NCBI GenBank assembly: GCA_030374765.1
Contig: JARGXX010000001.1
Coordinates: 2,046,001-2,110,000, forward strand
Source: Agarophyton chilense
Taxonomy: Eukaryota > Rhodophyta > Florideophyceae > Gracilariales > Gracilariaceae
DNA length: 64,000 nt
Direction of reading: 5' to 3'
A program made the translations under genes and the position numbers. The notes below the pieces were generated by a model. It saw nothing but the letters and a program-made list of their open reading frames with translations, made no database searches and was not told the origin of the DNA. Shown one piece after another: positions 9,913 to 47,128 of the stretch. Each line of letters starts with the position of its first letter. Position 1 is the first letter of the stretch.

Positions 9913-10161
9913 TGATTTCTTCCGGAATGGGGATGCAAATTATATTACAAGGGGAATAAGATCAACGATAGCTGGAACTGCCGTTTCTTCAAAAACGTGC
10001 TGCTAATTTTCATTTCCAACGCTCGAGCACCACGAACTTCCAGCGTGTTCCTTGCTCTCACCACGAATGATGCACTGTGAAGATTTCGCCCGCCATCGTC
10101 AACGAGCGCAATCGTCGTGCTCGGCATCCGCAAATAAAACGCTGCGGTGAAGAATAGAATA
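9913..10161. promoter_or_regulatory. Divergent promoter region between TEL2-like and FemAB-like genes
   Basis: 249 bases shared by two genes pointing apart. No TATA box or repeat stands out. Confidence 0.4.
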
Positions 10162-11649
10162 ATGGCGTTTGCGTCTTCGCGTGTGGTTTTGGATTTCCGA
10201 GGCGTGCAACCCGGAAGATCTGCACGTACTGCACCACCAAGGCGTTCCGCGCCGAAAATCGCAGAGATACCATTGCGATGCGAGTTAAGGCAACACCCAG
10301 CTGACAACAGTGTTGCGCAACCAGTCACGCCTAGAGTGCGGTACAAGTTATGTGTAGTGCGTTCTGTAATCGATGTTTCGAAGGAAGAATGGGATGATTT
10401 TGCCAGTCGTGCATGTGCCAGCCCCTTCCTGTTGCACGATTGGCTTCGATGTTTGGAACAATCTAAATGTGCCTCTATACATACTGGTTGGGAACCCCAT
10501 CACATTGCTCTCCGTGATGTGCATTCTGATGAGCTTGTTGCGATTGCGCCTGCTTACATGAAAACTCACTCAATGGGAGAGTTTGTTTTTGACTCTGAAT
10601 GGGCTCATGCCGCTTATGCTGCCGGTATATTGTACTATCCCAAGTTGTTGCTTGCAGTTCCATTTACGCCGGCGGCTGGACGTAGAATTCTTACGAGGGA
10701 GAAATCTACAGAACAAAGAGATATGATTTTGAATGCGTTTGCCGACGCTCTGGTTCAACTTTGCGAAGTCTTGAAAATAAGCTCTGTTCATGTTAATTTT
10801 TGTCGCAATGACGAGGTGAATGCATTGTCCAAAGCAGGTTTCTTACAAAGAAAAGGGGTTCAATACCATTTCACAAACTACAAGAAGGGACAAAGTGAAA
10901 TCGCGCAAATAGAGTCGCAAATACGAGCAAACCCGGCTCAAATGGATACTGGCCTCTTTTCCAAGGAAGTTGAAGAAAGAATCCCGTACATCGATTTTGA
11001 AGACTACTTGAGTGAATTTAAGTCGAAGCGACGTATCAAGATGCGAAGGGAACGAACTGTTGTCCGTAATGAATCGGGTCTGAAAATAGACGTCGTGGTC
11101 GGGGAACAAGTGAGTGAAGAGCTAATGGAACAAGTGTATCACATCTACAAGTCTACAATCGATAAACTGTACTATGGGAGACAGTATTTGACACAGTCCT
11201 TTTTTGAAATGCTTTCAAGGAGTGAAGAATTCAAGAAGCACATCTGCCTTGTGCTCGCAAGATCTACGGATGATAATAGAATAATTGGTGGTACGTTTAA
11301 CATAATCAGTGAAAACGAAGGTGGTGCATTTTACGGCAGGTACTGGGGATGTATAGAAGAAGTTCGATATCTTCATTTTGAGGCTTGCTACTACGCTGCA
11401 ATTGAATACTGTATTGAGAATGGTCTCTCTAGAATGGAACCGGGTGCTGGCGGTGGCGACTTCAAGTACATGCGAGGATTCGAACCGAGCATCACGAAGT
11501 CCATGCACTACATACGTGATAAACGTCTGTCTCATGCTGTTGAAAGATTCTTAGATCTTGAATCTCTCCATATTGACGGAGCAGTGGTGCAGATGCAGAT
11601 GGATAGCGCTATTCGATCGAAAGCACCCAGGAATCTGGGAAACATGTGA
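10162..11649 (+). CDS. FemAB-like acyltransferase (PF04339-type), probably plastid-targeted
   Basis: 495 residues from ATG 10162; the frame opens at an upstream GTG, so this is the first ATG. The body is a double GNAT-fold protein of the bacterial FemAB-like family. The clearest mark is near 430-465: MEPGAGGGDFKYMRGFEP, then ITKSMHYIRDKRLSHAVERF, the typical E-P-G-x-G-G-x-x-K...RGF block. YYGRQYLTQSFFEML and GGTFNIISENEGGAFYGRYWG also fit. Bacterial relatives are annotated as peptidoglycan biosynthesis/recognition proteins; the substrate in algae and plants is unknown to me. The N-terminus starts MAFASSRVVLDF and is rich in Ala, Arg, Pro and Ser without acidic residues early, like a red-algal transit peptide. 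A bacterial or cyanobacterial ancestry is likely. Confidence 0.8.
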   Translation: MAFASSRVVLDFRGVQPGRSARTAPPRRSAPKIAEIPLRCELRQHPADNSVAQPVTPRVRYKLCVVRSVIDVSKEEWDDFASRACASPFLLHDWLRCLEQSKCASIHTGWEPHHIALRDVHSDELVAIAPAYMKTHSMGEFVFDSEWAHAAYAAGILYYPKLLLAVPFTPAAGRRILTREKSTEQRDMILNAFADALVQLCEVLKISSVHVNFCRNDEVNALSKAGFLQRKGVQYHFTNYKKGQSEIAQIESQIRANPAQMDTGLFSKEVEERIPYIDFEDYLSEFKSKRRIKMRRERTVVRNESGLKIDVVVGEQVSEELMEQVYHIYKSTIDKLYYGRQYLTQSFFEMLSRSEEFKKHICLVLARSTDDNRIIGGTFNIISENEGGAFYGRYWGCIEEVRYLHFEACYYAAIEYCIENGLSRMEPGAGGGDFKYMRGFEPSITKSMHYIRDKRLSHAVERFLDLESLHIDGAVVQMQMDSAIRSKAPRNLGNM

Positions 11650-15734: not shown

Positions 15735-16032
15735 GGTTCAAGATGGGATGAGTAAAATAGTTGGGGGTAGAAAGCTGGATTGTCCGAGCTGGATTCAGAT
15801 AGCTTTGATATCGCGTACGGAGATCATTGCAAAAATCAGATGCGCTCTCCAAAGATGAATTGCACAGGGCGCCACGCGTGAACGCGCCCACTGGAAATGA
15901 ATGAGCCAACACCCAGTTAGTGATCCCAAAAAAGAAACGTGCCCAGAATCACTGCAGCATTACACACACGCTGCCACACAGCCTGTCATCGCCGTCGTGA
16001 TCTCTATTTCATACCCGCCCCGATGCATCACA
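15735..16032. promoter_or_regulatory. Divergent region between PsbP-like gene and CENP-B-like gene
   Basis: The minus-strand PsbP-like gene and the plus-strand transposase-derived gene share this interval. If the latter starts at the earlier in-frame ATG (15901), only 166 bases separate the two coding regions. Confidence 0.4.
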
Positions 16033-18516
16033 ATGAGGAACACTTTGAATCAAGGGCAGCGTAAACAGCTTATTGAAGAATATCTTCGTCGCTCAAATGC
16101 CGGCGAACCATCGTCCCAAAACGCGCTGGCGGAATGGGCCGCTCAAACATTTAACTTTGCGCAGAAGCCTAGTCAGGCCACCATTTCGCGACTATTGAAG
16201 AATCGGGTGACTATCTCCAAGTCCAGAACGCCGGACAATGCCAAAAGAGCTGCTGTTCCTAGACAACCGGCGCTTGAAGACGCTCTTTTTTCTTGGGTCG
16301 TTGACCAGAAGGTTCGGCGAGGTCGTGTAACGAGCGGCACTGTAAGAGAGTTTGGAAGACTTTTATTAAGGAATGTGAACGAACGATTGCCGGGCGGCAG
16401 ACATTTGGAGTTTCGTTTTTCCAATGGATGGATGGAGAAATACAAGAAGAGGTATGGACTGAAGTTCTGGCGATTGAATGAAGAACCTGACGACGAACAA
16501 GATGCAAATGTTTTTGAGGAAGGGTATCCGGCTTTTGTCCGAAAGCTCTCTACCTTCAGAGAGGAAGATGTCTGGACTGCTGCAGAATTTGGTGTTCAGT
16601 ATCATATGAATGCCGATTCAAATATATCTACTTCGTTGGGCCAGGATGAAAGTAAGATGACTGTACTAGCCTGTTGCAACAAGTCTGGTTCAGAGAAATA
16701 TCCTCTCACCATGATTGGAAAGAGCTCTACAAAAATTTCGATAGATGAACGAACTACCAAAGACATCGATTTCGAATACATTTCCAACGTCAGAGCATGG
16801 ATGACAGCCAAATTATTCTTTCAATGGCTTCATTCTTTCGATGCATACATTGGTCGGAAACGTGAAAGAAAAGTTTTACTGGTATTGGATTCATGTAGTG
16901 CCCATGGAAACCATGAAACTGTACCCGCTTTGAAACATGTGGAGATTCTATTTTTACCACCGGCGTCTCTTGCAAAGACGCTTCCAATGGAGTGTGGCGT
17001 AATTTCTACTCTCAAGCTGAGGTTTAAACGACATCAACTGTTAAGCGTTCTTGATGGGGTTGACCAAGGTGCCAGAAACTCTTTCTATGTCAATCCAATT
17101 GTTGCAATGAGATGGTTGAGTCAGGAGTGGAGTATACTACCGCCCATAATGATTCAAAGTTGCTGGCAGCAAAGTTTGGGAAATATCGACGCTGACAGGC
17201 ATAAAGTTCTCGTCGAAAGTAGTCGTGAAGAAGCTTATGAAATCAATGAATTGTTGAACGAAGTGGCTAGGGTATGTGGGCGTGTCAACATTAGAAGCCT
17301 ACTCTATTCACCTGATGAACGCGATTGCATCGAAACGGTCAATTTAGAAACCCTTCGTGATTCAGTCGTGGATCGACTGATCTCTGAAAAAATAGATTCG
17401 CAAACCGTTTCATTACCTGACGTTCCTTCCTTACCGCCCGTGGACGAACAGCTAAAGGCTTTAGCCACTGTCAGACAGATTTTGGATGAACGCGGTATGA
17501 TCGACAAAAACCTTCGCACAGTTGTCCGAGACGTTCAGCGCGCAATTCGTACAGAACTGGCTGCAAAGACTGGTAGAACTACGCTTTTCGGTTTCAGCGG
17601 ATCTAATGTGTTGCAACAAGGTGCTGAGGAGCAACGAGCCCAAGTAGCCCAACATGCTCAAAATGTTCAATCGTCTCATGTCCAACACCCTCGATTGTCC
17701 CAACCGCTTCACGAAGTCCAATCGTCTCCAGCAACCCCTCCTCCTCAATCGTCCCAATCACCTCAGCAGCCTCAGCAGCCTCGGTCGCCTCAGTCACCGC
17801 ATTTCTCACATTCCCCTCAGAGGACTCATTCGTCTGAACAGTCCGTGCAGCCACAACCAATTCAGTTGTCCCCGTCGTCTCAAGCGCCTCAGCAACCTCA
17901 GAAACTACACCAATCCAATCAGTCTCAGAATTCCGAACTGTCTCAGCAGTCTCAACCTTCTCAACAACCATCGCAAACTCAACAAACTCAAGATTCGGAA
18001 AAGGACCAACTCACTACATCATCAGTTCAAGTACAGGATTCAGCTACACCAGCCCCCTTAACTCGCTTTTCGAGAGCTCGTGCACACGCCAAAAGGACTG
18101 ACATCTCGGCTCATGATAAAAACAAGGTGCCCATGGAGGTGACAGAAGCTGCGACAGTGCAAGTCAATGCCTCACAACCAAAAGTTGTTCATGTCAACAA
18201 CGACCCACCCCGGGACGTACCTATTTCCGTTACTGATACCGAAAGTGTTGTGAAAGATGTGGAATCAACTACAAGAACACAACTGCTTGACGAGGATGTC
18301 CAGTTTGGTGAGCAGCATCCTAACATTTCGGTACCCGAGACTGAAAGAGACGCATCCGAAAGGCCTTGTCAACTTGAAATGGACGAATCTTCCGTTCAAG
18401 AGCACCATGTGCACGACCAAGAAATTAGAGGAATTACTGTGGAGTTTAAGCATTCTGAAGTTGTCCCTAAGGATGTCCAAACAGAATCGATAGAAATCAG
18501 TGAAGTACCGTCATAA
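16033..18516 (+). CDS. CENP-B/pogo-type transposase-derived protein with Gln/Ser-rich tail
   Basis: 827 residues from ATG 16033, or 871 if the in-frame ATG at 15901 is used. Order: psq-type helix-turn-helix (about 1-60, GQRKQLIEEYLRR to ATISRLLKNR), CENPB-type second helix-turn-helix (about 75-150), a DDE_1 nuclease-like domain (about 185-345), a helical segment, then a tail of roughly 250 residues rich in Gln, Ser and Pro and finally acidic. The triad appears as NADSN, VLDSCSAHG and LPMECGVI: the third acid is Glu in a Met-Glu-x-Gly setting where pogo elements usually have Met-Asp-x-Gly. I see no terminal inverted repeats at the ends. An intact long frame with a new C-terminal domain suggests a host gene made from a transposase, possibly a DNA-binding or transcription factor; a recently active element is the alternative. 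Confidence 0.8.
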   Translation: MRNTLNQGQRKQLIEEYLRRSNAGEPSSQNALAEWAAQTFNFAQKPSQATISRLLKNRVTISKSRTPDNAKRAAVPRQPALEDALFSWVVDQKVRRGRVTSGTVREFGRLLLRNVNERLPGGRHLEFRFSNGWMEKYKKRYGLKFWRLNEEPDDEQDANVFEEGYPAFVRKLSTFREEDVWTAAEFGVQYHMNADSNISTSLGQDESKMTVLACCNKSGSEKYPLTMIGKSSTKISIDERTTKDIDFEYISNVRAWMTAKLFFQWLHSFDAYIGRKRERKVLLVLDSCSAHGNHETVPALKHVEILFLPPASLAKTLPMECGVISTLKLRFKRHQLLSVLDGVDQGARNSFYVNPIVAMRWLSQEWSILPPIMIQSCWQQSLGNIDADRHKVLVESSREEAYEINELLNEVARVCGRVNIRSLLYSPDERDCIETVNLETLRDSVVDRLISEKIDSQTVSLPDVPSLPPVDEQLKALATVRQILDERGMIDKNLRTVVRDVQRAIRTELAAKTGRTTLFGFSGSNVLQQGAEEQRAQVAQHAQNVQSSHVQHPRLSQPLHEVQSSPATPPPQSSQSPQQPQQPRSPQSPHFSHSPQRTHSSEQSVQPQPIQLSPSSQAPQQPQKLHQSNQSQNSELSQQSQPSQQPSQTQQTQDSEKDQLTTSSVQVQDSATPAPLTRFSRARAHAKRTDISAHDKNKVPMEVTEAATVQVNASQPKVVHVNNDPPRDVPISVTDTESVVKDVESTTRTQLLDEDVQFGEQHPNISVPETERDASERPCQLEMDESSVQEHHVHDQEIRGITVEFKHSEVVPKDVQTESIEISEVPS

Positions 18517-23373: not shown

Positions 23374-24855
23374 ATGAGCGCTTTCGTGCCGGGCCTATCA
23401 CTGCCTTTCAGTCGTGTGTTTATCACTGGCTCCAATACCCAACTCGGGCGCCATCCCTCTCGCCCGACCGAAACTGCCCCATGTCCTGAAATATTTGCCA
23501 TTAAGTTGCCTTCGTTGCCCTCGCTGCCTTCATTGCCCTCGCTGCCTTCTTTGCCAGGCTTCGGCAAGAAGGCCCCAAAGCCGGCTGCAGAAGCACCCAA
23601 ACCAAAACCCGCCGAAAAACTAAAAGTCGGTGGCGTAACTGTTGATCGCAATTTGAACTCCAAGCCAGAAAGGAGGTCACCAATTACGAAGAGGGATTTA
23701 CCAGAAAAAGAGCAAGTTGGGCTTCCAAAGTTCTACAATCCTACTACAGCCCGCTATGAATTTTCCGCTGATGCTAAGGGTCAGAATGCTACTGTTTTCG
23801 ATATTCGTGTTGGTCGTGAGAGTAATACTACCAATCGTCGTATCAATGAACAGGGAACCTTTAGAAACATGGATCCGTACACGGATGATCTTTTGTGGGC
23901 TAGACCTGGTTGGTCCTCCGATGAAGCTAAAGTTGGCGTGCGTGCTGCTATCAAGCAGGTGTTTGGAAACGCCAATCTCTTCGAAAGCGAAATCGCAGAA
24001 TTAGCCTTTCCCATCAGTTGCGTTACTGAAACTTCTGATATGAAGGAGTTCATAAGAGCTCTTGGACTCTCAGAAGCTTACCGCAAACGCTTTTTCGAAA
24101 GCAACAGTAATACTCGTTTTGTGGAGTTGAACTTCATGCACTTTCTGGGTCGCGCCCCACATAATCAAGCCGAAATTAGCGAACATATCCAGATCATTAC
24201 TCAACAAGGATACAAAGCTGAAATCAATTCTTACGTTGATTCGGATGAGTATGACACTCTTTGGGGCGAAAGCCGTGTCCCGGCTGTTAACTTCCGAGGG
24301 GGCCATCCGTATAACAACGATATGAACAAGATTGCTGTTCTCAACGGAGGCTTCGCCACGACGGATCGTGCGTCGAACCGAGCTTACCTCAAAAGCGGCG
24401 ACACAACTGGCTTCAATCCATACTCCATCAGAAAGGGCTTGCCAGAGGCGTGGCAGGGAGAAAACGACGCACGCGCGTTGGCACGACCTGTTAGTTCTTT
24501 CCGAACAGATGTATTTTGGAATCTGGAGGCGAACCCTTTGCGAGAAGCAGAACTTGAATGGACATCTCGCTATGGGAAATGGAGCAAGTTTTACTATAAG
24601 GACTCCATTGTTTACAAAGAGGTCATGAGGCCCAAGCTCACACATTCTGATGCTGAGCTCGAAGAGGCGGCGGCAATTCTTAAGTATGGATCCACTGTCG
24701 CCAAGAACTACATTGGTAGCCGAAAGACCTTTGACATGGCGCCCATCATTGAGTTGCGCGCCCCAACGTCTGCGATTGCCCGAAACGGTCTCATATCTGT
24801 TTCTATGAAGAAGATCTCGTTCCCGATCCCAGTAGATTTGCAGCAGCCGGTGTGA
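23374..24855 (+). CDS. Phycobilisome rod/rod-core linker polypeptide (nuclear-encoded)
   Basis: 493 residues from the first ATG at 23374. Residues about 185-305 form one PBS_linker_poly domain: AAIKQVFGNANLFESEIAEL, EFIRALGLSEAYRKRFF, FVELNFMHFLGRAP and YVDSDEYDTLWGE are its standard blocks. The N-terminus (MSAFVPGLSLPFSRVF) looks like a red-algal transit peptide. It is followed by a tandem Leu-Pro-Ser run (45-61), Lys/Pro/Ala-rich sequence (65-84) and a long C-terminal region (about 310-493) outside the domain. Linkers assemble phycobiliprotein hexamers into rods and attach them to the core. With one linker domain, no CpcD domain and long flanks, it resembles the extended red-algal rod-core or inter-rod linkers rather than CpcC; which one cannot be told here. 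This gene is the main evidence for a red alga. Confidence 0.93.
   Translation: MSAFVPGLSLPFSRVFITGSNTQLGRHPSRPTETAPCPEIFAIKLPSLPSLPSLPSLPSLPGFGKKAPKPAAEAPKPKPAEKLKVGGVTVDRNLNSKPERRSPITKRDLPEKEQVGLPKFYNPTTARYEFSADAKGQNATVFDIRVGRESNTTNRRINEQGTFRNMDPYTDDLLWARPGWSSDEAKVGVRAAIKQVFGNANLFESEIAELAFPISCVTETSDMKEFIRALGLSEAYRKRFFESNSNTRFVELNFMHFLGRAPHNQAEISEHIQIITQQGYKAEINSYVDSDEYDTLWGESRVPAVNFRGGHPYNNDMNKIAVLNGGFATTDRASNRAYLKSGDTTGFNPYSIRKGLPEAWQGENDARALARPVSSFRTDVFWNLEANPLREAELEWTSRYGKWSKFYYKDSIVYKEVMRPKLTHSDAELEEAAAILKYGSTVAKNYIGSRKTFDMAPIIELRAPTSAIARNGLISVSMKKISFPIPVDLQQPV
23506..23557 (+). repeat. Tandem CTGCCTTCx-type 9-bp repeat encoding Leu-Pro-Ser units
   Basis: Inside the linker gene, short units (TTGCCTTCG, TTGCCCTCG, CTGCCTTCA and variants) repeat about six times and encode Leu-Pro-Ser triplets, just behind the presumed transit peptide. 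Confidence 0.85.
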
Positions 24856-28451: not shown

Positions 28452-28471
28452 GCGGAGAGCAGGCCAGCCAA

Positions 28472-28682
28472 GCAAAGGCGGGTGAAGCAAAGGCGGGTGA
28501 AGCAAAGGCGGGTGAAGCAAAGGCGGGTGAAGCAAAGGCGGGTGAAGCAAAGGCGGGTGAAGCGAAGAAGGGTGAAGCGAAGACGGGCGAAGCGAAGACG
28601 GGCGAAGCGAAGACGGGCGAAGCGAAGACGAGCGAAGCAAAGGCGGGCGAAGGTGAGGACGGGCGAAGTGAGGACGGGCGAA
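28472..28682. repeat. 15-bp minisatellite, about 14 units
   Basis: The unit GCAAAGGCGGGTGAA occurs six times without change at 28472-28561. GCGAAGAAGGGTGAA, three copies of GCGAAGACGGGCGAA and further variants follow to 28682. The variants are grouped in order, as expected from local tandem duplication. It lies in the leader/promoter of UBA1. On the plus strand it reads as Ala-Lys-Ala-Gly-Glu repeats, which I regard as non-coding. Confidence 0.92.
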
Positions 28683-29325
28683 GAAAAGGCGGCCTAAACA
28701 GGGCGGGCGAGAGCAGGTCGCGCACAAGCGCTGACAAGGCAAGCGTATCTACAGCTCTGAGATGGAAATCTGCCGCGGCGAACGGGTCTCAGCCAAGACG
28801 CACCGACGCGCGACGCAAACCGTTTTGGAGTGGATCAAACACGGGTATCTAGGATATGCATGCCACATGACTGACGTCTATGCACAACGTCGGCCGGCGC
28901 GTTCATGGCGGAGGTTGGAAGTGCAGCACACACACGAATCGTGGCGTCGTGTGCACGTGGCCACGTCGTAGTAGTTGTGCATCGTGGTACAGTAGTAGCA
29001 ACGCGCGTGGGTGTGAGTGACGCGTGACGAGGGAAGTGTGACGCGCAGAGAGTGCAAATTGCTGGTGGGAGGCTTGGAATGTGCACGGCGCGCGCGAGAT
29101 GTTTCGTTCGACGACGCGGCGAACGTAAAAGCGGTGCATGGTGACGACTTTGCGCGCGATACGGCAGAGGCGGCGCGCCATTCGCTCACGTCGCATTGCA
29201 ATTTGCACCAAGTCGTTTCCACTGTCCCACAGGACTGTACTACGTTGCACACTCCCACACCCAACCTCAACCCCTTTCCCCCCGCCGCCGTACAATACAC
29301 ACACATACACACCACCCCCACCCCA

Positions 29326-45264: not shown

Positions 45265-45672
45265 GTGAGGGAGATGGGCGGCGAGAACGTTGTGAGATGC
45301 GGGGCAGGAGGCTTGGAGAAACGCGTACGAGAAGGATGCGGGACAGCGTCCCTCTGTCTCATCGTGCATGTGCATCGACGGTTGTTGGAAATTCTGACAA
45401 GTGCGTGTGTATGTCAGTGTTAGAGCTTTCGGTGGAAACTGCACATTTCTCACTGTCAGCCCACGTGTACTGTAATGTAGCTTCGAACTGACGTCAGCTC
45501 CGGAAGTTGCACTACGTGTAGCTGTGAGCTTCGTCAGTGCGGCAGTGGAAATCCTCCGCTCCACACGAGGTGCAGAGCTTTGCGGCAGTGCTCTGCGGCA
45601 GAGCTCTGCGATATATGTACAGTTCATCAGCACGGGACTGTATCTTTAAGTGTGTTCTTGGTTACCGTGATC
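45265..45672. promoter_or_regulatory. Divergent promoter between VPS53 and FKBP-MsrA genes
   Basis: About 400 bases. A 12-base perfect palindrome GCAGAGCTCTGC lies at 45598-45609 within a cluster of related GCGGCAGAGC/TGCTCTGCGG half-sites from about 45570. A TATA-like ATATAT at 45611-45616 sits about 57 bases before the FKBP-MsrA start codon. Confidence 0.5.
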
Positions 45673-47128
45673 ATGGAGCGTACAGCATTCGTTCAGGGAA
45701 TCACGGTTGGAAAGCTTCGTATCCACGGAGGGACGAGACAGTCTGCGTTTACGACATATTCAACGATATCACGTAGATTATGCAAAGCGTCACGTCGAGC
45801 TTATTCCAATTTCAGCTATAACGTGCCGAGCGTTAGAAGAGTGGCCATGCGGATTGCGACTGATGGTGACTCTGTTAGTGTGCACTATACTGGCTACTTG
45901 GATGACGGAAGTGAGTTTGATTCGTCTCGAGGAGGTGAACCTCTCAATTTTGTCATTGGGGCAGGTACGGTGATTCGAGGATTTGACGATGTACGTATAT
46001 ACACGAGGAAAACGGAAAATGCATAGAAACGTTGCAAATCTAACACAAGCACTTGATACAAATCAAGGCTATTCGGGGTCTACGCGTGGGCGACTCTCGG
46101 CGATCTCGAATAGAAAGTGAAATGGCATATGGACAACGTTCTGAAGAGCTTGTAATAAGTATTGCTGCCGAAAGCGTACCAAAGGAATTGAAGCTTAAAG
46201 TCGGAGATCGTGTGCCGTTGTCGAACGGGTTGAGGGCCACAGTGCTTGAAATGGGTGAAAAAGAGGTGCGACTTGACGCCAATCATGAGCTTGCTGGAAA
46301 GGATTTGACGTTTGACATGGAGCTTGTTGGTTTCTCTGAAGCGGTATTACAACCGGTGCAAGACGGCTTGAAACGGGCCATATTCGGGCTGGGCTGTTTC
46401 TGGGGTACGTATGGCACGTTTTTTTGGACATGAACATATGCGGTTTCTAACTAGATGTTGCTTTTTGTGGATACAGGAGCCGAACTCGCGTTTCAAAGAG
46501 TGAAGGGAGTCGTGAGCACCAAGGTGGGGTACACACAGGGAAAGGAGGTGAAGCCGTCGTATGAACAAGTGTGTTCCGGAACGACCGGGCACGTGGAGGC
46601 GGTGGCTGTCGATTACGACGAATCGGTTGTGAGGTACGAGGACTTGGTAAAACTGTTCTGGAAAAGGTTAGGCAAATCGGCTTTGACAGCTGATCAAGTG
46701 GGAAATGACGTAGGTTTGCTTGCGGTTGGCTCATTTTGGCGCGTTTTTTTTTTGAAAGTTCTAACGTGTAGCACCTGTTGTTGTCTGCTGTTGTTTGCGT
46801 AGGTTGGAAGCCAGTATCGAAGTGGAATGTACTACCTGGACGAGACGCAGCGAAAGTTTGCGGAGGAGTCTTGCAAAGAGGCGAGCGAACGGTTCGGGCA
46901 GGCGGTGGTTGTTGAAGTGCGGGACAGTGAGAATGTGCCGTTTTATGTTGCTGAGAATTACCACCAAAGGTACGTAGAGAAGGAGTGCGGCGAAGCAAGC
47001 AAGAAAGTGGAAAGTGACGGGCGACTGACTGACAACTCGGGTGGACGCGTGCGTGGAACAGATACTTGGAGAAAGGCGGACAGAGCGCAGAGAAAGGCGC
47101 CTCGGAAACGATTCGGTGCTATGGGTGA
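45673..47128 (+). CDS. SlyD-like FKBP fused to methionine sulfoxide reductase A (five exons)
   Basis: Exons 45673-45990, 46068-46404, 46477-46709, 46803-46969 and 47062-47128 join in frame to 373 residues; every junction restores a conserved block. Residues 1-58 look like a transit peptide ([10 protein letters not shown], then Ser/Arg-rich, no early acids). Residues 59-196 form an FKBP prolyl isomerase of SlyD type: [37 protein letters not shown], an inserted-flap domain (about 132-170) and [18 protein letters not shown]. Residues 205-373 are MsrA: GLGCFWGAELAFQ with catalytic Cys216, [38 protein letters not shown] and a C-terminal CYG (Cys371) suited to resolving the disulfide. MsrA repairs methionine-S-sulfoxide; SlyD-like proteins isomerise prolyl bonds and chaperone folding. 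Plastid location is inference. Confidence 0.9.
45991..46067 (+). other. FKBP-MsrA intron 1 (77 bp)
   Basis: Donor GTACGT, TCTAAC branch-point-like motif about 25 bases before the acceptor ATCAAG. Phase 0, inside the FKBP domain after GFDD. Confidence 0.9.
46405..46476 (+). other. FKBP-MsrA intron 2 (72 bp)
   Basis: Donor GTACGT, TTCTAAC branch-point-like motif, acceptor TACAG. It splits the glycine codon just after the MsrA active-site Cys-Phe-Trp. Confidence 0.93.
46710..46802 (+). other. FKBP-MsrA intron 3 (93 bp)
   Basis: Donor GTAGGT, TTCTAAC motif, acceptor GCGTAG. Phase 0, between Asn-Asp and Val-Gly of the MsrA domain. Confidence 0.93.
46970..47061 (+). other. FKBP-MsrA intron 4 (92 bp)
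   Basis: Donor GTACGT, acceptor AACAG. ACTGAC in place of CTAAC as a possible branch point. It splits the arginine codon of NYHQR and restores [12 protein letters not shown]. Confidence 0.92.

Follow-up and report, generated by a model that had tools for sequence, protein, structure and literature searches.

Does the segment at positions 45673 to 47128 of the + strand of a 64,000-nucleotide stretch of Agarophyton chilense DNA (hereafter, the window) encode a single protein in which a SlyD-type FKBP prolyl isomerase is joined to methionine sulfoxide reductase A (MsrA), and if so, what might such a protein do? An earlier note on this DNA had proposed that removal of four short introns leaves a continuous 373-residue protein, and this was borne out: joining five exons at GT-AG introns gave a coding sequence for 373 amino acids and a stop, in frame throughout. 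Exon 1 (45673-45990) encodes a leader (residues 1-58) and the first part of the FKBP domain (59-106); exon 2 (46068-46404) encodes residues 107-218, comprising the remaining FKBP with its SlyD-type inserted flap, the linker, and the start of MsrA as far as GCFWG. MsrA continues in exon 3 (46477-46709; residues 219-296, including E259 and D296) and exon 4 (46803-46969; residues 297-352, including Tyr301 of QYRS, and YHQRY), and exon 5 (47062-47128) supplies its C-terminus, with C371, and the stop codon; all five lie on the + strand. The fusion gene model is well supported by the predicted splicing and by the two domains described below, and we regard it as real and as an unusual pairing of known families.

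The four introns measure 77, 72, 93 and 92 nt, respectively, and their donors are nearly identical (GTACGT in three, GTAGGT in one), with AAG, CAG, TAG and CAG at the acceptors. CTAAC precedes the acceptor by 28 nt in intron 1, 30 nt in intron 2 and 42 nt in intron 3, and intron 4 has only CTGAC, without CTAAC; as a measure of background, when the window's + strand was cut into 761 consecutive pieces of 84 nt, 19 of them carried CTAAC in their first 69 nt. Retention of intron 1, 2 or 3 introduces a stop within the retained intron, and retention of intron 4 leaves the frame open with loss of the MsrA C-terminus. The long uninterrupted open reading frames of the window suggest that introns are few in its genes, which would suit a red alga.

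Given that exon 2 encodes residues 107-218, the link between the FKBP and MsrA parts lies within that exon, as the earlier note had stated. The linker (about residues 197-210; about VLQPVQDG) is short and plain. A degenerate pattern, NHxLAG followed by GCFWG after 20-39 amino acids, matched the window at this junction alone and matched none of 100 shuffles. M168 or M190 could in principle serve as an internal start for MsrA, in which case two separate genes, one for the FKBP and one for MsrA, would have been wrongly joined. However, no in-frame stop follows the FKBP, and M190, the last methionine before GCFWG, sits inside the final conserved strand of the FKBP, with neither a stop nor another methionine in frame between it and GCFWG. 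Furthermore, NHELAG and GCFWG stand 31 residues apart in the single uninterrupted frame of exon 2. Because that frame runs unbroken across the junction, we rejected the separate-gene reading, which we consider very improbable.

Both halves of the fused protein scored above their Pfam cut-offs, in keeping with the original description of a SlyD-type FKBP joined to MsrA, with the caveat that the FKBP half fell below the NCBIfam cut-off for the SlyD equivalog. FKBP_C (PF00254) matched residues 62-133 (E 3e-21, 75.9 bits against a curated cut-off of 21.1), and PRK10737, the SlyD equivalog, scored 56.4 bits against a cut-off of 174. Judged by its sequence, the FKBP half is SlyD-like and lies outside the NCBIfam PRK10737 equivalog. 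A SlyD-type flap is inserted between AYG and the last strand, and it contains NHELAG, which conforms to the NHxLAG signature. Residues Y72, F82, D83, F93, V100, I101, Y127 and F188, at what we take to be the active-site positions of FKBP12, are present, and Phe104 occupies what is presumably the position of FKBP12 Trp59, so that the FKBP half has phenylalanine where FKBP12 has tryptophan.

The FKBP half aligned over its full length, flap and NHELAG included, with SlyD-type proteins of bacteria and archaea, and through the flap with the FKBP of 1ix5, which we take to be archaeal, and with the FKBP1A-SlyD chimera 5i7p. The FKBP core, the flap after AYG, NHxLAG and the active-site residues are common to the Agarophyton protein and to SlyD-type FKBPs such as the 142-aa form of Ruegeria, 1ix5, and 2k8i/2kfw (presumably E. 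coli SlyD); unlike them, the Agarophyton protein begins with an N-terminal leader and runs on into MsrA. Enterobacterial SlyD, including that of E. coli, ends in a His/Cys-rich metal-binding tail, which is missing here, the chain continuing as MsrA instead. Trigger factor and the multi-domain FKBPs are folding factors in which an FKBP domain is likewise joined to another module, but in the Agarophyton protein the second module is a repair enzyme. The closest FKBP relatives among the matches listed were 44-45% identical in a sample of 100 Pseudomonadota genomes (G069, G085 and G101) and up to 50% identical in one of 289 (G351); they share the class of G001, a Sphingomonas MAG, which we take to be the Alphaproteobacteria. 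In the plasmid set, identity was 42.5% for [Eubacterium] eligens, 40-42% for roseobacters and about 34% for enterobacterial SlyD. Because the genomes sampled were Pseudomonadota and not cyanobacteria, the alphaproteobacterial affinity of the best relatives does not fix the donor.

The MsrA half matched Pfam PMSR (PF01625) at residues 210-358 (E 1e-49, 168.8 bits against a curated cut-off of 23.7) and also exceeded the cut-off of the NCBIfam MsrA equivalog TIGR00401 (164 against 108.1). C216 (in GCFWG), Y237, E259, D296, Y301 and C371 are all present; we take C216 to be the catalytic cysteine and the Glu, Asp and Tyr positions to form the MsrA active site. The best match among solved structures was 2j89, presumably poplar MsrA (E 2e-45, 49% identity over 173 residues), and the C-terminal end IRCYG is common to the two proteins. 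That end was seen in none of the eight bacterial and archaeal MsrA proteins examined, whose cores were 40-48% identical to that of the fusion, and one alphaproteobacterial MsrA reached 50% among the matches listed for a 289-genome sample. Since sampled alphaproteobacterial MsrA proteins thus reach 48-50%, it is the tail, and not core similarity alone, that makes the fusion MsrA plant-type. The fusion MsrA shares GCFWG, GND..QYRS, YHQ.YL and the C-terminal SAEKG...IRCYG with 2j89. It differs from the poplar enzyme in that the HDPTTLNRQ loop, which is ARHDPTTLNRQGND in poplar, has been rewritten, the RFGFM stretch before QSAEKG is missing and the tail shortened, the Cys of KGCNDP is replaced by alanine, and an FKBP stands in front. 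The altered loop, the loss of RFGFM and the loss of the KGC cysteine are reasons why the efficiency of the fusion MsrA could be changed.

We examined whether the same two domains are joined elsewhere. A pattern scan of 84,980 GTDB species, which was confined to FKBPs with the flap that precede MsrA by 20-39 residues, as opposed to other domain orders, other linkers and flapless FKBPs, returned two matching stretches, one in a Sphingomonas MAG (L001) and the other in Photobacterium (L002). A real MsrA was present in each, but both were chance matches because NHxLAG was in a different frame from MsrA. Among plasmids, 1126 of 72,556 records matched the protein, and in two of the matches listed a single place spanned 80% or more of the query, with 33-34% identity. 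These places, in Haloterrigena (H1) and Halomarina (H2), each contain a stand-alone msrA, outside which the match extends upstream, so that the annotation shows no fusion in either record. In none of the 39 matching phage records did any one place reach 80% of the query; the IMG/VR viral contigs yielded no relative in a protein search suited to close relatives only, and no match to a slightly looser junction pattern. In two partly overlapping samples of Pseudomonadota, 97 of 100 genomes matched, as did 171 of 289 at E 1e-25, and in neither sample did any of the matches listed span both domains. Nor was an FKBP-MsrA or SlyD-MsrA fusion found among the matches listed from the open-licence literature. 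These results agree with the earlier view that the pairing is unusual. Within the sequence sets covered, all of them prokaryotic, plasmid, phage or viral and none eukaryotic, it is provisionally a new pairing of two known families.

Fusions of MsrA with other partners are on record. They include MsrA-MsrB fusions (PMC8000184, PMC2713860), a fusion of MsrA with SelR (PMC3714255), a glutaredoxin-MSR fusion (PMC2679010) and, in Emiliania huxleyi, a GST-MSRA fusion (PMC7539508). The MsrA-MsrB, glutaredoxin-MSR and GST-MSRA proteins resemble the Agarophyton protein in placing MsrA in one chain with a functionally related domain; in them, however, the partner is a second reductase or thiol enzyme, whereas here it is a prolyl isomerase/chaperone.

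Judged by its genes, the window is nuclear DNA of an alga that has phycobilisomes, most likely a red alga and less likely a glaucophyte; the gene products include a nuclear phycobilisome linker, PsbP, SufD, eIF2-alpha, ribophorin I, ubiquitin E1 and Vps53. The phycobilisome linker was matched best by total score by the multi-linker proteins CpcN and Glr1262, and best over a single stretch by LRC2 and LRC3 of 5y6p, which we take to be a red-algal phycobilisome; a short repeat encoding SLPSLPSLP lies in the N-terminal region of the linker (23505-23555). A 15-bp tandem array of 16.3 copies (28470-28715) overlaps the 5' end of the open frame for ubiquitin E1, ahead of the first Met of that frame. 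An open frame of 871 residues at 15901-18513 (+) carries Tc5/pogo-type DDE_1 and HTH_Tnp_Tc5 domains, and the inverted repeats between 15000 and 20000 are only short and imperfect (14-25 nt, 72-93%). At 10138-11646 (+) is a FemAB_like (PF04339) protein, which had no NCBIfam match at E 0.001 and whose N-terminus, MAFASS, resembles the plastid leaders of the window. Three tandem 13-bp palindrome-like units (GCAGAGCTCTGCG) occupy 45572-45610 (+), 63-101 bp upstream of the fusion ATG, in the direction of the Vps53 open reading frame, which is divergent, and constitute a possible cis-element. A 12-mer of the unit matched the window five times with at most two mismatches, three of the matches being those at 45572-45610, a total that is not above chance given that 20 of 100 shuffles had at least five.

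The destination of the protein was judged from its leader. The putative plastid transit peptide region (45673-45846, + strand; residues 1-58) begins MERTAFVQG and has a high content of Arg, Ser and Thr, with 9 R, 2 K, 1 E and no D; AFV occupies residues 5-7. Counted from the first Met of each, AF falls within the first 25 residues in four of the 20 window ORFs scanned with Pfam (SufD, PsbP, the phycobilisome linker and the FemAB-like protein) and in none of the remaining 16. The FemAB-like protein is counted here as plastid-type, although a plastid location is unproven for it. This comparison was devised after the sequences had been seen and relies on predicted ORF starts, and Vps53, a non-plastid protein, would join the AF group were its second or third Met the true start. 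Red algae and glaucophytes are reported to use a plastid signal at the N-terminus that is based on phenylalanine (PMC12531127), and the AF motif of the leader fits that signal. The fusion protein is probably imported into the plastid. Of the targeting proposed at the outset, the Arg/Ser/Thr-rich leader and a phenylalanine motif like that of the window's plastid-type proteins speak in favor, and this support is indirect.

An Arg-rich leader nearly devoid of acidic residues would fit a mitochondrial signal as well, and the best FKBP relatives in the cyanobacteria-free sample are alphaproteobacterial, so one could envisage a protein that is mitochondrial or dual-targeted and not confined to the plastid. 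The AF motif argues against this, as it is common to the window's plastid-type proteins and absent from the window's phosphatidylserine decarboxylase, an enzyme that is usually mitochondrial. We consider a mitochondrial or dual location unlikely.

The SlyD flap binds chains that are non-native or unfolded, and oxidised proteins are reported to be better substrates of Msr enzymes when unfolded. From the observed continuous frame, the two domains and their conserved residues, we infer, with somewhat more confidence than doubt, a nuclear-encoded, probably plastid bifunctional protein with each half active, in which the SlyD half would hold non-native clients while MsrA reduces Met-S-sulfoxide. 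After import into the plastid, the flap would capture stromal proteins that are unfolded or damaged, the FKBP core would catalyse proline isomerisation of the captured client, and the tethered MsrA would use Cys216 to reduce Met-S-sulfoxides on that client, Cys371 being the likely resolving cysteine; tethering would keep the oxidised client beside MsrA. Oxidised MsrA would be recycled by thioredoxin or glutaredoxin, and for MsrA of the red alga G. gracilis, regeneration by glutaredoxin and glutathione is reported to be possible (PMC6316033).

Coupling of chaperone and MsrA, including the earlier suggestion that the chaperone part could expose oxidised methionines to the reductase, is a plausible hypothesis, and a fusion without coupling would account for the sequence equally well. 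The latter would be a lineage-specific fusion of two active, uncoupled enzymes, in which MsrA merely gains a shared transit peptide and shared expression. It is consistent with the short, plain linker, with the GTDB scan, in which no fusion of the same geometry remained once the two chance matches were set aside, and with the Pseudomonadota samples of 100 and 289 genomes, in which no listed match spanned both domains and, by eye, no FKBP and MsrA lay close together on a contig among the matches listed for the 100. None of the sets searched yielded a relative that carries this fusion, which leaves selection for coupling without support. The residues conserved in both domains and the undamaged frame, which could be set against uncoupled halves, do not separate the two readings. 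We regard the uncoupled fusion as possible but not probable. The cooperating, plastid-located protein remains the reading we prefer. Its widest form, a dedicated red-algal plastid quality-control enzyme, conserved beyond this species, that would couple chaperone capture and prolyl isomerisation to methionine-sulfoxide repair of the same client and that arose from a bacterial-derived SlyD-like FKBP and a plant-type MsrA, is put forward only tentatively.

If the two halves are uncoupled, the protein would be an unusual domain pairing of modest interest. If they cooperate, nature would offer an example of one chain in which a chaperone hands damaged proteins to a repair enzyme, and whether MsrA is limited by holdase unfolding could be tested directly with it. 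Cooperation would also mean that a bacterial-type SlyD has been recruited into organelle protein care.
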